Origin: Planctomycetota bacterium | GTDB taxonomy: Bacteria > Planctomycetota > Phycisphaerae > UBA1845 > UTPLA1 | Direction of reading: 5' to 3' | Assembly: GCA_015654675.1 (NCBI GenBank) | Contig: JAATGM010000031.1 | Location: 1-64,000, forward strand | DNA: 64,000 nucleotides | Part shown: one piece after another, positions 1,574 through 12,100 of the stretch | How positions within the stretch are numbered: position 1 is the stretch's first letter | Layout of the letters: each line of letters starts with the position of its first letter | Translations under genes and position numbers: made by a program | The notes under the pieces: model-generated | What the model was told of the DNA's origin: nothing | What the model saw: the letters and a program-made list of their open reading frames with translations, nothing else | The model's database searches: none

Positions 1574-3157
<1,584 letters not shown>

Positions 3158-3359
3158 GGTCGTGTCCTCCGATGGTCCGACGGCCGGTCGAGCGATGGAA
3201 CTCTTTTCTTGTTCCGGGCCATATTCTGCCTTCGGAAGTCGGCGAGTGGAAGGCGTATTGGGGTGTTTCGGGGGTTTTGTTCGCAGGCGCGGATTATTTG
3301 CAATGTTCGGCCGCGGCATGAGTTCGCGGCGTGATTGGGGGGTTGAAATGGGGTGAAAA

Positions 3360-3431: not shown

Positions 3432-4763
3432 TTGGACGCCGGGGCACTTATTTTTGTCTGCTCGGTCGCGATCTCGCGCGGGATGCGGTTGCTGCCTTAT
3501 CAGGCGGCGGCGGTGAATCGGGCCGTTCGGCTGACGTGGACCAACTGGGCGCGGCAGACGGGCAAGAGCACCACGTTTGCGCTGCGGCGGATCGTACGCG
3601 CCATTCGGCGCGGGCGATTGCAGGTGTTGCTGTCGGCGGGGGAGCGGCAGAGCCGCGAGTTGATGGCGAAGGTGGCGAGTCTGTGCGGCGACCTGGGGGC
3701 CGCCTGTCGCGTGCGCGAGGCACGCGAAACGCTGGGGGACGTGCGCAAGCTTGAAGCGCGGCTGGCCGGCATGCTGCGGCTGGTGGGGCTGCCGGCCAAT
3801 CCGATGACGGCGCGGGGCTACTCGGGCGACCTGCTGCTCGACGAGTTTTCGATGCACCGCGACGACGACGCGATCTGGGCGGCGCTGTTTCCGTCGCTGC
3901 TGCGCGGCAGCGGCGAGCTGGACGTGGCCTCGACGCCGCGCGGCCGGAAGAATGCATTTCATCGACTGCTCTCCAACGCACTTTTTTCGCATGAAACGAT
4001 GTCGGTGCATGAAGCGATCGAGCGCGGGCTGGCGATCGACGTCGAATCGCTGCGGGCGTCGATGGATGACCCGGTCGCGTTCCGGCAGGAGTTTGAGTGC
4101 GAGTTCGTGGATGAAGCGACTGCGTTCATTCCGCACGAGTTGATCTTGCGCTGTGAGGATGCGTCGCTGGCGAAGCGGCTGGACGAGGCGCGGCTGGGGA
4201 CGCGCGAGGCGGCGATTTATCTTGGCGTGGATGTGGGGCGGGTGCGCGATCTGACGGTGATCTGGATCTGGGAGGCGGCGGCCGGCGGGTTGTATGTGAC
4301 GCGCGGGGTTGTTGAGTTGGCCGGAACGCCATTTGCGGCGCAGCGGGCCGAGTTGGAGCGGTTGCTGGCGCGGCCGGCGGTGCGGCGGTGTGCGATCGAC
4401 CGCACGGGGCTGGGGGCTCAGCTCGCGGAGGAGCTGGCGGCGCGATTTGGGGAGCAGCGGGTGGAGCCGGTGAACTTTACGGCGGAGACGAAGAGCGAGA
4501 TGGCCGGTCGGCTGCGGGTGCTGGCCGAGCGGGCCATGTTGCGGATTCCGGCGGACGAGGCGATTCGGCGCGACTGGCACTCGTTGGCGCGGATCGTGAC
4601 GACGGCGGGGAACGTTCGCTTCGAGGGGGATCGCGGGAGCGGCGGGCATTCGGATCGATTCTGGGCGGCGGCGCTGGGGTTGCAGGCGGCGCGGAAGCCG
4701 GGCGGTGTGATCGAGTATGTCGGGGCGGGGGCGTTTGCGTTTGGGCGGGAGGGGGCTTGGTGA
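3432..4763 (+). CDS. Phage terminase large subunit, Mu gp28-like
   Basis: This is the ATPase-nuclease that would drive DNA into a preformed head. Walker A is ARQTGKST at about residues 40-47, Walker B LLLDEFS at about 134, and a coupling motif VASTPRG follows. The nuclease half keeps its acidic residues in GVDVGR (about 264), AIDRTG (about 321) and HSDRFW (about 405), so both activities look intact. The start is uncertain: TTG at 3432 has a GAGGAG ribosome binding site 6 bases upstream, while ATG at 3483 lacks one and would begin MRLLPYQ. No small terminase subunit is adjacent. It is the first gene of a seven-gene head module of phage Mu type. The ATG at 3381 lies inside the 23-bp repeat and is unlikely to be used. 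Confidence 0.9.
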   Translation: MDAGALIFVCSVAISRGMRLLPYQAAAVNRAVRLTWTNWARQTGKSTTFALRRIVRAIRRGRLQVLLSAGERQSRELMAKVASLCGDLGAACRVREARETLGDVRKLEARLAGMLRLVGLPANPMTARGYSGDLLLDEFSMHRDDDAIWAALFPSLLRGSGELDVASTPRGRKNAFHRLLSNALFSHETMSVHEAIERGLAIDVESLRASMDDPVAFRQEFECEFVDEATAFIPHELILRCEDASLAKRLDEARLGTREAAIYLGVDVGRVRDLTVIWIWEAAAGGLYVTRGVVELAGTPFAAQRAELERLLARPAVRRCAIDRTGLGAQLAEELAARFGEQRVEPVNFTAETKSEMAGRLRVLAERAMLRIPADEAIRRDWHSLARIVTTAGNVRFEGDRGSGGHSDRFWAAALGLQAARKPGGVIEYVGAGAFAFGREGAW

Positions 4764-4782
4764 ATACCAAAAAGAATTGCGG

Positions 4783-4829
4783 CCCTTCGACCCTTCGACT
4801 GGCTCAGGGCGGGACAAGCTCAGGGACCG
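4783..4829. repeat. REP-like dispersed element between terminase and portal
   Basis: The stretch carries units of the form CCCTTCGACnnGCTCAGGG in partly inverted arrangement. This family of short palindromic repeats is widespread in environmental bacterial chromosomes and typically reads PEPVEG-like peptides when translated. A related shorter copy lies at 7894-7918. Its presence suggests the head module has been resident in the chromosome for some time. Confidence 0.65.
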
Positions 4830-4843
4830 TGAGGAGCGATGTG

Positions 4844-6130
4844 ATGAACGGATTGGTTCGGCGCGTGGTGAATGCGGTTCGCGGCGGGCGCGAGCGGGTA
4901 CGCGGTGGCGTGATCGCTGCGCCGCGCGAGCGTGATTCGTGGCGGAGCTATCCGGCTGACGGGCTTACGCCGCAGCGGATGGCGGCGGTGTTCAAGGCGG
5001 CGGATGCGGGTGATCTAACGGAGCAGATGGCGCTGTTCGAGCAGATGGAGGAGAAGGACCCGCACCTGTTCTGCGTGGCGAACACGCGACGGCTGGCGGT
5101 GACCGGGCTGGCATGGCGGATCGTGTCGGCGAGCGAGGTGGATGCCGACGGCGGGTTCGATCGCCCGGCGGCCGACGAAGCGGCGGCGTATTGCCGGGCG
5201 GCGCTGCGGCGGATCGAGCGGCTGGATGAGGCGCTGCAGCATGTGTCATTGGCGGTGGGGCGGAACGTGGCCGTGGCGGAGCTGGTGTGGGAATTGGGGG
5301 CGGATGGGCCGGTGCTGGTGGACATCGTGCCGGTGGAGTTTTCGCGGCTGGTCATCGGGTCGCGCGGCGAGGTGCGCGTGCTGACGGAGGAGCAGCCCAA
5401 CGACGGGATCGAGCTGCCGGCCAACAAGTTCATCGTGCACGCACCGCATGCGGTGAGCGGATCGCCGGCACGGGGCGGGCTGCTGCGGGCGTCGGCGCTG
5501 GCTTATCTGGGCAAGCAATTCGCGCTCAAGGACTGGCTGATCTTCGCGGAGATCTTCGGGATGCCGCTGCGCGTGGCGCGGTATGAGCCGCATGCGACGC
5601 CCGATGAGAAGCGCGAGTTGTTGGACATGCTGCGGCGGCTGGGAGCGGATGCGGCCGGGGTGTTTTCGAAGGCGGTCGAGCTGGACATCAAGCAGACGCG
5701 CGTGCCGGGCGACACGAATCCGTACGAGTCGCTGTGTCACTATTTCAATCGCGAGCTATCGAAGGCGTGGCTGGGGCAGACGCTGACGACCGACACGGCG
5801 CGATCGCTGGCGAACCTGGGGGCGGCCGAGGTGCACGATCGCGTGCGGCGCGACCTGCGCGATGACGACATCGTTAAGGAAGCGCGGACGATGCGGCGCG
5901 ATCTGCTGGCGGTACTGACGCGGGTGCGGTTCGGGGCGGAGGTCGAGCCGCCCTATTTTCGCAGGGAACCGGAGCGGCCGCGGGATGCGGCGGGGTTCGC
6001 CAAGATGCTTGGCACGGCGTTGAATGAGCTGGGGGTGCGCGTTCCGGAGGGGTGGGCGCGGGCAATGTTGGGGATTCCGGGGGCGAGTGAGGGTGAATCG
6101 GTGTTGCAGGATCTGAATCGAAAGGAGTGA
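4844..6130 (+). CDS. Phage portal protein, DUF935 / Mu gp29-like
   Basis: The 428-residue protein would form the dodecameric portal through which DNA enters the head. Family features are the segment DPHLFCVANTRRLAVTGL near residue 70, the block FALKDWLIFAEIFGMPLR in the middle, and YFNRELSKAWLGQTLTTD further on, all characteristic of DUF935. The frame is open upstream into the terminase gene, but the ATG at 4844 is preceded by GAGGAG at a spacing of about 8 and is the convincing start. Length is somewhat shorter than Mu gp29. The stop codon is followed after 2 bases by the protease start, so the two are probably translationally coupled. Confidence 0.9.
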   Translation: MNGLVRRVVNAVRGGRERVRGGVIAAPRERDSWRSYPADGLTPQRMAAVFKAADAGDLTEQMALFEQMEEKDPHLFCVANTRRLAVTGLAWRIVSASEVDADGGFDRPAADEAAAYCRAALRRIERLDEALQHVSLAVGRNVAVAELVWELGADGPVLVDIVPVEFSRLVIGSRGEVRVLTEEQPNDGIELPANKFIVHAPHAVSGSPARGGLLRASALAYLGKQFALKDWLIFAEIFGMPLRVARYEPHATPDEKRELLDMLRRLGADAAGVFSKAVELDIKQTRVPGDTNPYESLCHYFNRELSKAWLGQTLTTDTARSLANLGAAEVHDRVRRDLRDDDIVKEARTMRRDLLAVLTRVRFGAEVEPPYFRREPERPRDAAGFAKMLGTALNELGVRVPEGWARAMLGIPGASEGESVLQDLNRKE

Positions 6131-6132
6131 GC

Positions 6133-7101
6133 ATGACGAGCGTGATGGAGTTGGCGGAGCGGCGGGTGAGTTCGGTGGCGCTGGAGGCGACCAGCGGCGG
6201 CAAGCTGCCGACGCGCGTGCTGCTGGTGCCGTGGGGCGAGGTGGTGAGCGAGCATGGTGCGTTCGTGATGGACGACGAGGCGGCCAAGCTGACCATCGCG
6301 GCCTTTGAGTCGCACGGGACGGACCTGCCGATCGACTACGAACACCAGACGCTGGGCGGGCAGTTCAGTTCGCCGAGCGGGCAGGCGCCGGCCGCGGGCT
6401 GGATCAAGCGGATCGAGGCGCGGGCGCCCAGCCCTCACCCCGACCCTCTCCCAGGGGGAGAGGGGGAGGCGGCGGGGCTGTGGGCCGACGTGGAGTGGAC
6501 CGAGCCGGCTCGTGAGCAACTGGCCGCGCGGCAGTATCGCTATCTCTCGCCGGTGGCGCTGGTGCGCGGTGACGATCGGCGGATGGTCGGGCTGCACTCG
6601 GCGGCGCTGACCAACAAGCCGGCGATCGTGGCGATGCGGCCGGTGGTGAATAAGGCGGGCGATGTGTGGGAGGAGTTGCGGGGGGCGGTTTATCCGCCGA
6701 TGCGTCGCGGCGTGTTCACGGGCGGCGAGACACAGGAGGAACTCGCGGCCGGCGCGGTGGCGCGGATTCGCGATCTGACTTCGCAGCTCGCGCGGCGGAC
6801 GGCGTCAGAGCTGGTTTCGCAGGCGCTAGCGTCGGGCAAGCTGCTGCCGAGTCAGCGGCCGTGGGCCGAGCAACTCGTGCGGCAGAACCAGTCGGCGTTT
6901 GAGACGTGGCTCGAGGAAGCGCCGGTAGTGGTGGCCGCGGGTCGGACGCGCGGGCCGTCGGGCGAGCGCGACGTGCGGCGCGAGGCGATTGCGGCGCGGG
7001 CGCGGGCGGAGTATCGCGCGGCGGGGCGGTTCATCTCGGGGATCTGCACGGAGGAGGCGTTTGTGGCGGATGCGGTGAAGCGAATGGCAAAGAGCGAATA
7101 G
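6133..7101 (+). CDS. Mu gpI-like prohead protease (and scaffold)
   Basis: This 322-residue protein matches the Mu-like prophage I family, which cleaves scaffold and head proteins during head maturation. Diagnostic segments are LPIDYEHQTL near residue 65, PAAGWIKRIEARA at 86-98, and RQYRYLSPV at about 132. The C-terminal half is helical and charged, as expected for a scaffold. The ATG at 6133 has an AAAGGAG site 5 bases upstream. Residues 99-112 (PSPHPDPLPGGEGE) are not part of the family: they are encoded by a REP-like palindrome inserted in frame between two conserved blocks. The reading frame survives, so the protein could still be functional. Confidence 0.87.
   Translation: MTSVMELAERRVSSVALEATSGGKLPTRVLLVPWGEVVSEHGAFVMDDEAAKLTIAAFESHGTDLPIDYEHQTLGGQFSSPSGQAPAAGWIKRIEARAPSPHPDPLPGGEGEAAGLWADVEWTEPAREQLAARQYRYLSPVALVRGDDRRMVGLHSAALTNKPAIVAMRPVVNKAGDVWEELRGAVYPPMRRGVFTGGETQEELAAGAVARIRDLTSQLARRTASELVSQALASGKLLPSQRPWAEQLVRQNQSAFETWLEEAPVVVAAGRTRGPSGERDVRREAIAARARAEYRAAGRFISGICTEEAFVADAVKRMAKSE
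6427..6468. repeat. REP-like palindrome inserted in frame in the protease gene
   Basis: Bases 6444-6452 (CCCTCTCCC) and 6456-6464 (GGGAGAGGG) form a perfect 9-bp stem with a 3-base loop. The unit resembles the dispersed CCCTCACCC...GGAGAGGG repeats of many bacterial chromosomes, which read SPHPNPLP-type peptides. Here it adds 14 codons without disturbing the frame. Confidence 0.75.
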
Positions 7102-7107
7102 CGAATT
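7092..7107 (+). repeat. 16-bp direct repeat, copy 1 (second at 7934-7949)
   Basis: GAGCGAATAGCGAATT occurs at 7092-7107, at the end of the protease gene, and again at 7934-7949, before the major head gene. Both are followed a few bases later by GAACGA. The two copies bracket the decoration gene, so that gene may have been inserted or duplicated there, or the repeat may be a simple dispersed sequence. Confidence 0.6.
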
Positions 7108-7137
7108 GCGAACGAATTCAGAAGGGATCGGTGAAAT

Positions 7138-7893
7138 ATGGCGTTGACGGCGAATCGGGAAGTGAGCCGGTATGTGGATCAGGAGTTGCGCTCTTATCGC
7201 GTGGCTGGCGGGGCGCATGTTTTCAAGGGAGCGTTTGTCGGGCTGAACCGGGCCACGGGCTATGCGCGGGCACTGGCGTCGGGCGATGCGTTTGTCGGTA
7301 TCGCTTACGAGGAGGCGGACGCTACCGGGGCTTCGAACGGCGACAAGTCGGTGCGGGTGTTTACGCAGGGGGATTTTCTGCTGGCCGTCACGGGTACGGT
7401 GATCACCTCGATCGGCCGGCCGGTGTTTGTATCGGGCGATGATGCATTGTCGCTGACGTTGGCAGCGGGCGTAGCGCGGGTGGGGCGATGCGTGGATGTG
7501 CCGTCGGACGGGACGGCCATCGTGCGGATCGAGACGCTCGAAGACGCCCAGGAGGTGCGTTACGCGAACGTGCCGCTGGCGAGTCTCACGAGCGGGGCGA
7601 CCACCAACCCGGTGATGATCACGCACAAGCCGTGCGTGATTCTCGCGGCCGAGGTGGTGTTCAACACGAAGCCGGACGCGGGGAATCTCGACGTGGGCGT
7701 GGGCAATACGACGCCGAATGAGATCGTGAGCGCGTTCAACCTGACGTCGCTGACGAACAACGTCAGGTCGGCGCTGACGCTGGCCGGTTCGGCGGTGGCG
7801 GCGGGAGCGCGAATCTGGGCGCGGGTGGGCTCGGCCACGAGCACGGCGGGCGTGGGTGGAATCCTCACGCTGCGATATGTGGAGATGCCGTAG
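7138..7893 (+). CDS. Capsid decoration/cement protein, DUF2190-like N-terminus
   Basis: The 251-residue product sits between protease and major head protein, where Mu-like phages often encode a small cement protein. The N-terminal 125 residues (EVSRYVDQELRSYRV, HVFKGAFVGLNRATG, FVGIAYEEAD) have the short beta-rich pattern of DUF2190-type decoration proteins. The C-terminal half (VVFNTKPDAGNLDVGVGN, then GARIWARVGS) looks like an added beta-sandwich that could face outwards from the capsid. The N-terminal assignment is a family-level inference; the C-terminal domain is not recognised. An AAGGGA site precedes the ATG. Confidence 0.7.
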   Translation: MALTANREVSRYVDQELRSYRVAGGAHVFKGAFVGLNRATGYARALASGDAFVGIAYEEADATGASNGDKSVRVFTQGDFLLAVTGTVITSIGRPVFVSGDDALSLTLAAGVARVGRCVDVPSDGTAIVRIETLEDAQEVRYANVPLASLTSGATTNPVMITHKPCVILAAEVVFNTKPDAGNLDVGVGNTTPNEIVSAFNLTSLTNNVRSALTLAGSAVAAGARIWARVGSATSTAGVGGILTLRYVEMP

Positions 7894-7918
7894 TCGCCCT
7901 TCGACAGGCTCAAGGACC
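7894..7918. repeat. REP-like dispersed element, short copy
   Basis: CCCTTCGACAGGCTCAAGG follows the stop codon of the decoration gene directly. It is related to the longer element at 4783-4829. Confidence 0.6.
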
Positions 7919-7975
7919 GAATTGAATTGCGACGAGCGAATAGCGAATTACAGAACGAAAGTCGGGGAGTGAAAC

Positions 7976-8887
7976 ATGGCTGTGATTGATACGGGGTTGT
8001 TGACGAAGGGGCTGCGGAGCGAGTTTTTCAATCGGTTTGACGGGACGCCGGTTCACTATCGCGATCTCGCGACGCGGATTGTGTCGAACGCGGACCGCGA
8101 GACATACAAGTGGCTCGGGACCGTGCCGAAGATGCGCGAGTGGGGCACCGGCCGGCTGGCGCAGGGGCTGCGGACGGAGTCGTACTCGGTCGAGAACCTG
8201 AAGTACGAATCGACCATCGAGGTGGATCGTGACGAGATTTCGGATGACCAGACCGGGCAGATCCGCATCCGCATCGGCGAGCTGGCGCAACGGGCGGCGA
8301 CGCACAAGGACTATCTGATCTCGCAGTTGCTGCTGGCGGGCGAGTCGAGCGGGCTGGCGTATGACGGGCTGCCGTTCTTCAGCGATGTGCATGTGTCGGG
8401 GGCGTCGGGTTCGCAGTCGAATGCGCTCGAGCCGTCGTCGGGCAGTCCGTCGTCGCCGACGGTCGAGGACTTCAAGGGGGCGATGACTGACGGCATCGCC
8501 GCCATGCTTGGCTTCAAGGATGACCAGGGCGAGCCGATGCTGATCGACGCGTCGGGACTGGTGTGCGTGGTGCCGCCGTCGATGTACTTCACGGCGCTGG
8601 AGGCGATCAACGCGACGGTGATCGGGAACCGGTCGAACGTGCTGGCCAGTGCGGCGCGGGTGGTGGCCATGCCGTGGCTGACGAGCGAGACGACGTGGTA
8701 CCTGCTGAAGACCGACGGCGTGGTGCGGCCGTTCATCTTCCAGGATCGCGAGCCGGTCGAGTTCAACGCGCTGACGGCCGAGTCGGAGGAGGGGTTCATG
8801 CGCGAGAAGTTTATCTACGGCGTGCGGGCGCGGTATCGCCTGACGTATGGCTACTGGCAGCACGCGGTGTTGCTGCGGTTCTCGTAG
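7976..8887 (+). CDS. Major head protein, Mu gpT-like
   Basis: This 303-residue protein is the main capsid shell subunit. It matches the Mu-like gpT family through YKWLGTVPKMREWG (about 43-56), the block YESTIEVDRDEISDDQ (about 79-94), YDGLPFFSDVH (about 128) and the C-terminal segment REKFIYGVRARYRLTYGYW. Length is close to that of Mu gpT (about 305). The ATG is preceded by GGGGAG. The protein appears complete, with no interruption, which argues that the head module is maintained and not merely decaying. Confidence 0.92.
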   Translation: MAVIDTGLLTKGLRSEFFNRFDGTPVHYRDLATRIVSNADRETYKWLGTVPKMREWGTGRLAQGLRTESYSVENLKYESTIEVDRDEISDDQTGQIRIRIGELAQRAATHKDYLISQLLLAGESSGLAYDGLPFFSDVHVSGASGSQSNALEPSSGSPSSPTVEDFKGAMTDGIAAMLGFKDDQGEPMLIDASGLVCVVPPSMYFTALEAINATVIGNRSNVLASAARVVAMPWLTSETTWYLLKTDGVVRPFIFQDREPVEFNALTAESEEGFMREKFIYGVRARYRLTYGYWQHAVLLRFS

Positions 8888-8957
8888 TCGGTTGGGAGTT
8901 GGAGCGCGGCGGCGGGGAAAGGGTGGCGCCCCGCCGCCGCTGCTGGGGAGGTGGGCG

Positions 8958-9395
8958 ATGAGTTACATCACGGCGGCGGATATCGAGGAGCGGCTGGGCA
9001 CGGCGGCGTATGTGCAATTGACCGACGACGCGGGGAGCGGCACGGCGGATTTGGACAAGGTGGAGGAGGCGCGGGCGGGGGCCGAGGGCGAGGCCGACAG
9101 CTATTTCGCGATGCGATATGCGACGCCGGTGGATCTGACAGCGCATCCGGAGCTGGCGGCGGTGCTCAAGAGCTTTGTGCTCGACATCGCCGAGTATCGG
9201 CTGCACGCGCGGCGGCCGCCGATGCCGGCCGATGTCGTGCGGCGGCGCGGCGAGGCGATTGCGTGGCTCGGTCGCGTGGCGAGCGGGGCGGTGCAACTGC
9301 CATCGGCGATTACGCCGGCCACGAGCGCGGCGCGAGTGGTGGCGGTGACGGGGGAGGAACGCATGTTCACGCGCGAGACGTTGCGCGACGCGTGA
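8958..9395 (+). CDS. Mu gp36-like protein (DUF1320), head completion
   Basis: The 145-residue product begins MSYITAADIEERLG, followed by a helical, Ala- and Glu-rich body (ELAAVLKSFVLDIAEYRLHARR), the pattern of DUF1320/gp36 proteins found just after gpT in Mu-like phages. These are thought to act in head completion or as head-tail connectors. The chosen ATG has a GGGGAGG site 6-8 bases upstream; the frame is open into the major head gene but upstream starts are not plausible. It is followed after 19 bp by the gp37-like gene. Confidence 0.85.
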   Translation: MSYITAADIEERLGTAAYVQLTDDAGSGTADLDKVEEARAGAEGEADSYFAMRYATPVDLTAHPELAAVLKSFVLDIAEYRLHARRPPMPADVVRRRGEAIAWLGRVASGAVQLPSAITPATSAARVVAVTGEERMFTRETLRDA

Positions 9396-9414
9396 GCGAG
9401 CAGGGGGTCGGGGC

Positions 9415-10194
9415 ATGTCTTATCTGGGTGATATCGAGAGCAGTTTTGTGGATCGGATCGCGGGGACGCTGGTGAGCGGCGTGCCGCTCATGGGGGCCGT
9501 GCGTGGCGCGACCGGCGTGTTTCGACCGGCCATGCGCGCCGCGCTGCTGCGCGAGCGGACGCCGGCGGCATACGTGAGCGTGCTCGACGAGGCGACTGTG
9601 GCCGGTACGGCGACGGCGCGCGGGCCGCGCTGCGCGGTGTATGCGGCCACGCGGAGCTTGCGGCTGACGTCGAACCCGCGCGAGGGGGATGCGGCCGAGG
9701 TTGGCGTGTTCGAGGTGATCGGGCGGCTGCGCGGCCGGCTCGACTACTTCGAGGTGATTGCGGGGCGGAAGGCGCTCGGGCTTACGGTGAAGCTGCTCGA
9801 AGGCGACGAGCGCACGGCCATCGCCGAGTTGCTCTATCGCGTCGAGACACCCACTGCGGGATTGATGTTCGACGGCTCGATGCTGGGCGGCCCGGCCAGC
9901 ATCACGACGCGCGGGCTGCGCTCGCCGTTCGTCGAGCCGCCGGGCGTTCCGCCGGCCAATGAGCTGATCTGGAGCGGCGAGTTCCGCGGGGTGAACGATG
10001 CCGCGGTGGATGGGTCGATCTCGGCCATTGAGGCATTGATCGGGGCCGCGACAACCGGCGAACTCGTCGATGAGGCGGGAACTGCATGGCCGGGGATGCG
10101 AATTGTCGAGTGGTGGGAGGAACGGCCGCGATTTACTGACCCACATCTGAACATGGTTGCCCAGCCGGCCGGGATGCGTTTTCAACAGGATTAG
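9415..10194 (+). CDS. Gp37-like phage protein, last gene of the head module
   Basis: The 259-residue protein occupies the position of Mu gp37 (DUF1834), after gp36. The N-terminal part (MSYLGDIESSFVDRIAGTL) and the central region with alternating strands (GDAAEVGVFEVIGRLRG) are compatible with a small connector protein, but sequence identity to a named family is not evident to me. The C-terminal half contains a segment ELIWSGEFRGVNDAAVDG and a Trp-rich end (VEWWEERPRFTD). Function is inferred from position only. No tail sheath, tube, tape measure or baseplate gene follows; the next gene is a PEP-CTERM-type protein. Confidence 0.6.
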   Translation: MSYLGDIESSFVDRIAGTLVSGVPLMGAVRGATGVFRPAMRAALLRERTPAAYVSVLDEATVAGTATARGPRCAVYAATRSLRLTSNPREGDAAEVGVFEVIGRLRGRLDYFEVIAGRKALGLTVKLLEGDERTAIAELLYRVETPTAGLMFDGSMLGGPASITTRGLRSPFVEPPGVPPANELIWSGEFRGVNDAAVDGSISAIEALIGAATTGELVDEAGTAWPGMRIVEWWEERPRFTDPHLNMVAQPAGMRFQQD

Positions 10195-10379
10195 CCAGCG
10201 CGCGGCAGCACTGAAACGGCCGGGTCCGGAAAGCTCCGCGTTTTCAATGCAGGCGCGGGGGTAGCCGCGCAGAAGTTGCCGAAGCTATCGGCGTGGGCGG
10301 GCCCGCGTCGATAGGGCTGAGAACCACGGATCGGCCGCGCGGCGGACGACTTCGTAAATCGCTGAGAGGAGGACGGGTC

Positions 10380-10979
10380 ATGAAAACGGCTGCCGGTATT
10401 TTGGCGCTGGCTTTGATCGCATCTCCGGCCGGGGCGGCGCTGATTACGGCCGACACACTCGGCAACGATAACGCCACGACGAACGACTACTACGGCGTGC
10501 AGTTCGTGTCGGGTGAGGGGAGCGTCCGGTCAGTCACTTTTGACGTTTCGGGCACGGCCGGGGCGATGTTTGATTTTGATGGCGTGGGGAATTTCGCCGC
10601 CGGAACGAATCCGGTGGTGCGCGTGCCATCGCTGGTGGGCCTGTCGCCTTCGGATTTTAGCTATGTATGGAACAGCGCGGCCGGGCATCCGAGTGTGCTG
10701 ACGATCGATTTTGCGCCGGGCTCGTTTACAGCCGGCGATTCCTTTCGGTTCGGGGCTGACACCGACTTTCTCGTGACCGATCCGGCGCCGGGGCGCGTGT
10801 TCGGAATGGCGGGCGTGCCGTTCACGGTGCGGATGGAAAGCGGTTCGGAGGCGAGTGCTGCGTTCACGCAGGTTGGCAGCACGATGTCAGGTGCAGCTGT
10901 GTCGGTCGCGCCGGAACCGGCGACGGTCTGCTTCCTGCTGATGGGGCTATTGGCGCGTCGAGCGTCCACACGGTGGTGA
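10380..10979 (+). CDS. PEP-CTERM sorted exported protein
   Basis: The 199-residue protein has an N-terminal signal peptide (MKTAAGILALALIASPAGAA), a beta-rich body and the C-terminal sorting signal APEPATVCFLLMGLLARR: a PEP motif, a hydrophobic stretch and terminal arginines. Such proteins are processed by an exosortase and placed in the exopolysaccharide matrix or on the surface. The ATG at 10380 follows GAGAGGAGG. No exosortase is seen in this window. Base and codon use are like the neighbours and it is not part of the head module. Confidence 0.8.
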   Translation: MKTAAGILALALIASPAGAALITADTLGNDNATTNDYYGVQFVSGEGSVRSVTFDVSGTAGAMFDFDGVGNFAAGTNPVVRVPSLVGLSPSDFSYVWNSAAGHPSVLTIDFAPGSFTAGDSFRFGADTDFLVTDPAPGRVFGMAGVPFTVRMESGSEASAAFTQVGSTMSGAAVSVAPEPATVCFLLMGLLARRASTRW

Positions 10980-11269: not shown

Positions 11270-12100
11270 ATGTCCGTCGTTCGGCTGATGCGCGAGATTC
11301 GATTCTCAATCGATCGTGATTGGGCGGGGGCGGCGCACGGGGAAGAAGGGTTCAGCGGGGCACATCCGGTTTCCAATTCGTGGGGCGGCTGGCCCTCGGC
11401 GGTCGGCATCGCGCCCTACCTGACTTTGCGGGCCTATGTCGATGGTCCGCCCGATCCGGTCACGGGGTATCTGGTCAACATCCGGCTGATCGACGTCCTG
11501 CTGCGCGAGAAGGCGATTCCGCTGGCGGCCCAGCGGCTGCGCGAGTTCGGCGTGAAGGCCACCGGCGAGCGCCTGGTGCAGGGGCTTTGGTCGGCCGTCG
11601 CGCCGCATGCTCCGGAGCCGGCGCGGCTGCTCGCGCTCAAGCTGGGGACGACGCCGCATGTTCATTTCGAGGTCGAACGAGGAGCACCTGAGATGGTCCG
11701 GCTCACGCAGAGTTTCGAGTTTTCGGCGGCCCATCGGCTGCACGTCGACCGGTTGAGCGACGAGGAGAATCGCCGCGTCTTCGGCAAGTGCAACAATCCG
11801 CGCGGCCACGGTCACAACTACCAGGTCGAGGTGAGCGTGGTGGGGCGGCCGGACGCGACGAGCGGGTGCGTGCTGCCGTTGCCGCTGCTCGAGCGGATCG
11901 TGAAGGAGCGCGTGATCGACCGGCTCGACCACACGCATCTCAATCTGGATACAAAAGAGTTCGCGACTCTGAATCCGTCGGTGGAAAACATCGCCATCAC
12001 GGTCTGGAAAATGCTGGCCGACCAGGTCAGCCCGGCCAAGCTGGACTGCGTGCGGGTGTGGGAAACGCCCAAGACATACGCGGAATATCGGGGAGAATAG
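11270..12100 (+). CDS. 6-pyruvoyl/6-carboxytetrahydropterin synthase-like protein with duplicated domain
   Basis: The 276-residue protein carries a QueD/PTPS domain at about 142-276: FSAAHRLH with zinc ligand H155, GKCNNPRGHGHNY with C174, H180 and H182, then LDHTHLN and NPSVENIAI. This domain would act on dihydroneopterin triphosphate in the queuosine/deazapurine or pterin pathway. The N-terminal 140 residues look like a second, degenerate copy of the same fold (YLVNIRLIDVLLREKAIP) without the His and Cys ligands. A pterin carbinolamine dehydratase lies elsewhere in the window (44.6 kb) but no other que gene is adjacent. The start is uncertain: no clear ribosome binding site, and ATG 11288 is an alternative. 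Confidence 0.85.
   Translation: MSVVRLMREIRFSIDRDWAGAAHGEEGFSGAHPVSNSWGGWPSAVGIAPYLTLRAYVDGPPDPVTGYLVNIRLIDVLLREKAIPLAAQRLREFGVKATGERLVQGLWSAVAPHAPEPARLLALKLGTTPHVHFEVERGAPEMVRLTQSFEFSAAHRLHVDRLSDEENRRVFGKCNNPRGHGHNYQVEVSVVGRPDATSGCVLPLPLLERIVKERVIDRLDHTHLNLDTKEFATLNPSVENIAITVWKMLADQVSPAKLDCVRVWETPKTYAEYRGE

Follow-up and report, generated by a model that had tools for sequence, protein, structure and literature searches.

A capsid module of the phage Mu type lies in the window, the whole stretch of 64,000 nucleotides that was analysed, from a planctomycete genome (G000; assembly of 4.93 Mb, 96% complete). It belongs to a cluster that probably represents a vertically inherited, exapted capsid with a tail of zero length, packaging DNA in a gene-transfer-agent-like manner. 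A wider reading, for which the chance is close to even though somewhat short of it, sees an order-wide viriform of Planctomycetota with a zero-length tail, which in some lineages, including that of the window, would be a selected capsid devoid of an attachment device. A domesticated capsid had been proposed in the first-pass annotation, and the proposal is now backed by order-wide single-copy presence, congruence with rpoB, purifying selection, loci that are split and yet kept, and the remoteness of viral relatives.

Seven open frames, all on the forward strand and none interrupted, occupy positions 3432-10194 in the order terminase, portal, protease, minor capsid or decoration protein, gpT, gp36 and gp37-like protein. 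Seven intact co-directional head genes in Mu order had been announced beforehand, and the open frames, Pfam and the concurring PHROGs assignments bear this out. The terminase large subunit (3432..4763, +; Pfam Terminase_6N/6C) starts at 3432 or at the ATG at 3483. It is followed by a Mu-type portal protein (DUF935; 4844..6130, +; Portal_Mu 2e-82), whose start is probably the ATG at 4844, and by a head maturation protease and scaffold of the Mu gpI type (6127..7101, +; Mu-like_Pro 3e-50, phrog_328) with 23 positions invariant across 45 genomes. A repeat of about 36 bp around 6431-6470 is inserted in frame within the protease gene (SPHPDPLPGGEGE in the protein) and has at least 12 other copies in the genome. 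Next come a minor capsid or decoration-type protein (7138..7893, +; XM1_gp53_minor_capsid 4e-6; phrog_1731, virion structural protein, 4e-20), the major head protein gpT (7976..8887, +; Mu-like_gpT 8e-58) and the head-tail adaptor gp36 (8958..9395, +; Phage_Mu_Gp36 2e-22; phrog_195, connector), the last probably starting at the ATG at 8958. The final protein matches Phage_Mu_Gp37 weakly (0.0014, under the Pfam cut-off). Its earlier label, 'gp37-like', covers a protein of two domains: residues 1-144 (9415..9846, +) form a tail terminator by structure and homology to c48, and residues 145-259 (9847..10191, +) a Dit-like baseplate ring by structure and HMM.

The module is embedded in host genes. 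On its left lies pckA (1574..3319, -; PEPCK_ATP 1e-215); on its right, the gene of 6-pyruvoyl-tetrahydropterin synthase (PTPS; 11270..12100, +; PTPS 3e-36) is accompanied by further host genes for an exo/endonuclease-phosphatase protein with a dockerin, a heme oxygenase and a DksA-type zinc finger. Between gp37 and PTPS, positions 10293-10979 encode a secreted protein with a PEP-CTERM-like tail and without a Pfam match, probably a host gene. The first base of the window is also that of contig C53; since pckA separates the contig end from the module, the latter is not cut off. In GC3, all seven module genes (0.82-0.89) match the host genes (0.81-0.89). Within the family of the window (f1), the seven genes are contiguous and in the same order in 13 of the 15 genomes examined, and PTPS adjoins the module in most members, usually downstream. 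The first-pass annotation had suggested a search of relatives for this gene order beside pckA; the gene order recurs, and the pckA neighbour itself is kept in one relative only.

A family-by-family search of the G000 genome found one copy of the module. Across the same genome, at 96% completeness, no second terminase of the same clan was present, Phage_Mu_F (PF04233) and PhageMin_Tail (PF10145) had no match, and hub or fibre relatives were found nowhere. As a control, PF04233 matches the intact prophages of G071 and G091; PF10145 fails to match these too, so its absence in G000 is weak evidence. With that reservation for PF10145, the reported absence of Mu F and tail genes is upheld, and an intact prophage holding the missing tail genes elsewhere in G000 was sought and not found. 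For transposase, integrase and repressor, also reported earlier as absent, the judgement comes from the annotated genes flanking the module, which are host genes. Lysis or regulatory genes were not identified in the family of the window.

The loss of the tail is recorded in the structure of gp37. In the intact prophages L138, L139 and L296 of the same order and in the viral contig L316, the genes run gp36, c20, c48, c33, c74 and c51, with c20 corresponding to Neck1 by PHROG in L138; the hub c7 comes after c51 in the three prophages, and L316 ends in c51. In domesticated clusters, gp37 directly follows gp36, and the hub comes after gp37. By HHalign, the N-terminal part of gp37 matches c48 (2.6e-7) and the C-terminal part c51 (1.2e-7), and an HMM of the C-terminal part picks up the separate gene that immediately precedes the hub in L295 (1.6e-15) and L298 (1.8e-15). 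The L295 series comprises a protein of 145 aa at the terminator position, one of 139 aa at the tube position, one of 551 aa at the tape-measure position, a C-part homolog of 138 aa and a hub of 754 aa; the tube and tape-measure names in intact prophages rest on position, size and sequence character, Pfam and PHROGs giving no useful match for these genes.

The AlphaFold model of gp37 (pLDDT 82) leads to the same two domains. With VIA-align, residues 1-144 resemble the terminators of Mu (Z 12.7-12.9), P74-26 (13.5), lambda (gpU, 11.3) and RcGTA (10.4), and residues 145-259 resemble the Pam3 baseplate protein (10.4), P1 (9.2), SPP1 Dit (8.7) and the lambda tail tube gpV (8.1); besides the fold, the sequence link and the position of the gene support the Dit identity of the second part. 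The neck chain 9gb5_H of phiCD508 covers both parts (Z 12.6, rmsd 4.8), indicating that two-domain neck proteins exist elsewhere. A single frame spans terminator and Dit in 18 genomes from f1, f5 and f8; the two are adjacent in two frames in G046, and are separate genes in the intact prophages L138, L139, L295 and L296 and in viral contig L316. No fused gp37 was detected with local HMMs among the viral contigs retrieved by head protein, hub or terminase. As read from gene order and homology, the block of tail tube and tape measure has been excised, and the flanking terminator and Dit genes have been fused in most members having both. Such a fusion implies a neck joined straight to the baseplate ring.

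What follows gp37 varies among the members of the order. Complete members, which include G007, G014, G020, G023, G034, G037, G039, G043, G046, G061 and G065, carry after gp37 the gene c7 (about 700 aa), then c9, c10, adhesin-like genes (beta helix or LamG), c28/c43, c11 and c17; most genes downstream of the module have no useful match in Pfam or PHROGs. The c7 product is probably a baseplate hub of the gp27/gp44 type, a tentative label drawn from an AlphaFold model with pLDDT 53 and a Foldseek list made up almost entirely of baseplate hubs, Mu gp44 among them, none passing 1e-3. A hub relative occurs in about a third of genomes, in part of them at the cluster. Both c7 and c10 are missing genome-wide in nine genomes (G000, G001, G002, G005, G008, G011, G012, G013 and G015), as is c11 bar one marginal match in G001. 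Since G005 is placed among complete genomes in trees, loss of hub and fibres appears to have occurred repeatedly. Three genomes (G001, G012 and G015) encode a c62-like domain in frame behind the terminator; it replaces Dit and is possibly a substitute attachment part. Signs of decay are seen in single genomes: the hub of G003 (L242 7026-9100) is in pieces with a stop, G009 (L108 10016-10309) carries a surplus partial portal and lacks a head protein, and G052 shows several fragments.

Other arrangements occur as well. In part of f8, loci L124, L125, L128, L129, L144 and L250 carry a c12-c15-c13-(c57-c18-c21, LamG-like) block in place of gp37 and hub; this block holds no candidate for a tube or tape measure, and c12 and c15 were considered as divergent terminator and Dit genes, for which profile comparison gave no match. 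In f4 (L130-L134, L142, L143), portal, protease, minor capsid, head protein and gp36 are kept without a recognisable terminase, one f4 genome having a prophage-type copy, and a GNAT acetyltransferase gene separates portal from protease in those members that were examined. Small genes often follow gp36 there; one of them, c26, is membrane-spanning, and its homologs precede the terminase in prophages L139 and L299, a location that makes a lysis role possible. Some f5 genomes have no recognisable gp36 or gp37 beside the shell genes. Split clusters, with terminase and portal apart from the shell genes, occur in G003, G096, G048, G045 and several other f5 genomes; in G096, both halves are on one contig of 3.79 Mb, at 2.44 and 0.42 Mb. 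Retention of both halves is not expected of a remnant.

The cluster is a feature of one order of Phycisphaerae. The portal was present in 99 of the 200 relatives searched, and all matching genomes except four belong to this order, the other orders of the class being nearly empty (4 weak portal matches). Nearly every genome of the order has one copy of it, mostly at 39-71% identity. Of the 113 order genomes, 90 encode the major head protein; among the 65 of good quality, 60 do, and the remaining 5 lack it altogether. It is mostly single-copy, with 59-74% identity in most families and about 40% in f4. Terminase profile A3 was detected in 77 of the 113, the missing ones being mainly f4. Named head-protein records at 59-74% come from metagenome-assembled genomes of Phycisphaerae, Phycisphaerales or Planctomycetota, one being labelled just 'bacterium'. 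The best head protein match reaches 39-41% among 2.9 million viral contigs and about 35-37% among phage records, and the best viral terminase match reaches 47%. The close relatives of the cluster thus sit in host genomes, not in viruses.

Comparison with the host phylogeny points in the same direction. In the portal tree, each family with at least two members forms a single clade, and the branching within f1 is that of rpoB, with G003 deepest, G000 paired with G011, G002 with G013, and G005, G007 and G014 together. Portal and rpoB distances correlate with a Spearman coefficient of 0.85 when f4 is left out and of 0.89 inside f1, values as high being reached in 0 of 2000 permutations. By the congruence of these trees and the monophyly of the families, the cluster is inherited vertically with its host. 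Head protein trees are less clean, in that two prophage head proteins nest among domesticated ones; the prophage-like head proteins at L137 8294-9187 and L135 14324-15235 are 62-64% identical to domesticated ones, with portals only 34-39% identical, which suggests exchange of head proteins between prophages and the domesticated cluster. The family f4 was not accepted as a proven vertical case, because it lies outside all other families in the portal tree and beside f6 in the rpoB tree; this conflict, together with the missing terminase, may reflect a separate recruitment.

Selection on the genes has been assessed from conserved residues and from dN/dS. The first-pass annotation had noted that the terminase keeps its Walker and nuclease residues, and these are indeed invariant in 38 genomes: Walker A RQxGKS, Walker B LDEF, motif III STPxG and the nuclease aspartates D267, D323 and D408, individual sequences of the alignment having gaps or truncations at some of these motifs. 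The dN/dS comparison it had called for, made by NG86 on close genome pairs, gave about 0.04-0.16 for most genes in most pairs. Values were 0.040 for the head protein and 0.105 for the terminase in the head-only pair G002/G013, 0.088-0.158 in the split-locus pair G033/G045, and higher, up to 0.27, in G034/G037. Between G000 and its nearest relative G011 they were 0.21-0.54 (protease 0.43, gp37 0.54), near saturation, and may indicate weaker constraint in the lineage of the window. Overall, on the evidence of these ratios and the invariant terminase residues, the structural and packaging genes are kept under purifying selection.

These data can be assembled into a scenario. An ancestor of one Phycisphaerae order, comprising several families of which f4 may be a case apart, would have exapted a Mu-like siphovirus, passed on vertically ever since. 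As the sequences show, the hosts retain its portal, protease, minor capsid and head protein, plus the terminase outside f4. The proteins would assemble a matured icosahedral head, which the terminase would fill with host DNA, as no viral genome is left; this filling is predicted from the retention of terminase and portal. In the same scheme, gp36 and the terminator-Dit fusion would close the portal. In complete members, a hub of the gp27/gp44 type and fibre-like proteins would provide attachment, making the particle GTA-like with a tail length of zero. In the lineage of the window, hub and fibres have been lost as well, so that the head, closed and filled with DNA, would have no known means of attachment and would be either delivered through another adhesin or act without specific delivery. 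Classical delivery cannot be general, since the window and the majority of its family lack hub and fibres and no gp36 or gp37 is recognisable next to the shell genes of some f5 genomes.

For the window itself, the main rival is a domesticated capsid selected for something other than gene transfer: a shell, kept inside the cell or released, that holds DNA or other cargo and can dispense with attachment parts. This is possible rather than probable. It accords with the fact that portal, protease, minor capsid and head protein are the most widely kept part, that hub and fibres are missing from the window, most of its family and many other members, and that f4 retains a shell without a recognisable terminase. 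Packaging of DNA is nevertheless implied by the terminase outside f4, whose catalytic residues are the same in all 38 of the 38 genomes compared, and a hub relative persists in about a third of genomes, partly at the cluster. The remaining explanations fare worse. That the locus is a decaying Mu-like prophage remnant with head genes intact by chance, the alternative left open in the first-pass annotation, is very unlikely: the loss of hub and tail-tip genes in the window, the broken hub of G003, the fragments in G052 and the missing head protein of G009 would fit decay, and they are outweighed by order-wide retention, rpoB congruence, purifying selection, preservation of both split halves and a shared fusion scar; nor is the locus absent or broken in all close relatives. 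A PBSX-like killer particle, packaging host DNA and killing relatives, is a shade less credible again, for PBSX-type killing requires a tail, and no tail tube or tape measure candidate is present and no hub exists in the genome of the window, despite the hub and fibre-like genes behind the head in complete relatives. Least plausible is a capsid-forming satellite that would take its tails from a helper phage. Such satellites are known to combine head genes with a lack of tail genes, and some members of the order do carry intact Mu-like prophages, but inheritance is vertical, the family conserves the chromosomal neighbour, a tail tube taken from a helper would find no place to join because the terminator is fused to a Dit ring, and neither a helper-type Mu portal, a second same-clan terminase nor Mu F was found in the G000 genome.

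The preferred reading, a zero-length-tail capsid packaging DNA, can be set against known systems. With phage Mu, the cluster shares the gpI, gpT, gp36, gp37 and portal families of the head region; it differs in having neither an F or G gene nor contractile tail genes, and flanks without transposition genes. With the intact Mu-like siphovirus prophages of the same order, L138 (G071), L139 (G091), L295 (G043) and L296 (G040), it shares a homologous terminase and hub, and L138, L139 and L296 also have the order terminase, portal, protease, gp36 and the same terminator, Dit and hub families. The prophages differ in possessing Mu F (L138, L139), Neck1, a tail tube, a tape measure and separate terminator and Dit genes, and in their sporadic occurrence; tail tube, tape measure and Mu F are lacking in G000. 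With the GTAs of the Rhodogtaviriformidae, Bartogtaviriformidae and Brachygtaviriformidae (Kogay et al. 2022, PMC9662315), common features are an origin from tailed phages, transmission as part of the host genome, purifying selection on structural genes and a locus without replication or integration genes (here, annotated flanks made of host genes), and the N-terminal domain of gp37 has a fold like the RcGTA terminator (Z 10.4). No autonomous viral genome is apparent, the flanks being host genes and the locus being spread over distant sites in several genomes. Unlike GTAs, the cluster belongs to another host phylum, has a Mu-type head, has lost tube and tape measure, has terminator and Dit fused and is known from genes alone, and the lineage of the window has no hub or fibres. 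The cluster is thus best classed, on genomic grounds, as a phage-derived viriform, short of a proven GTA.

The recognised, genetically established GTA groups are two from Alphaproteobacteria and one from spirochetes, and Planctomycetes are not mentioned in that account (PMC9662315). No description of the present system was found in the literature covered, outside which most subscription papers and preprints fall. If the interpretation is true, the Planctomycetota capsid would have arisen independently of these groups, would differ from them in head type and would preserve the traces of tail removal. Clusters of this kind may be miscounted as prophages in genome surveys. The persistence of a head under selection while many lineages lose hub and fibres raises the testable question of what advantage the host draws from a tail-less phage head.
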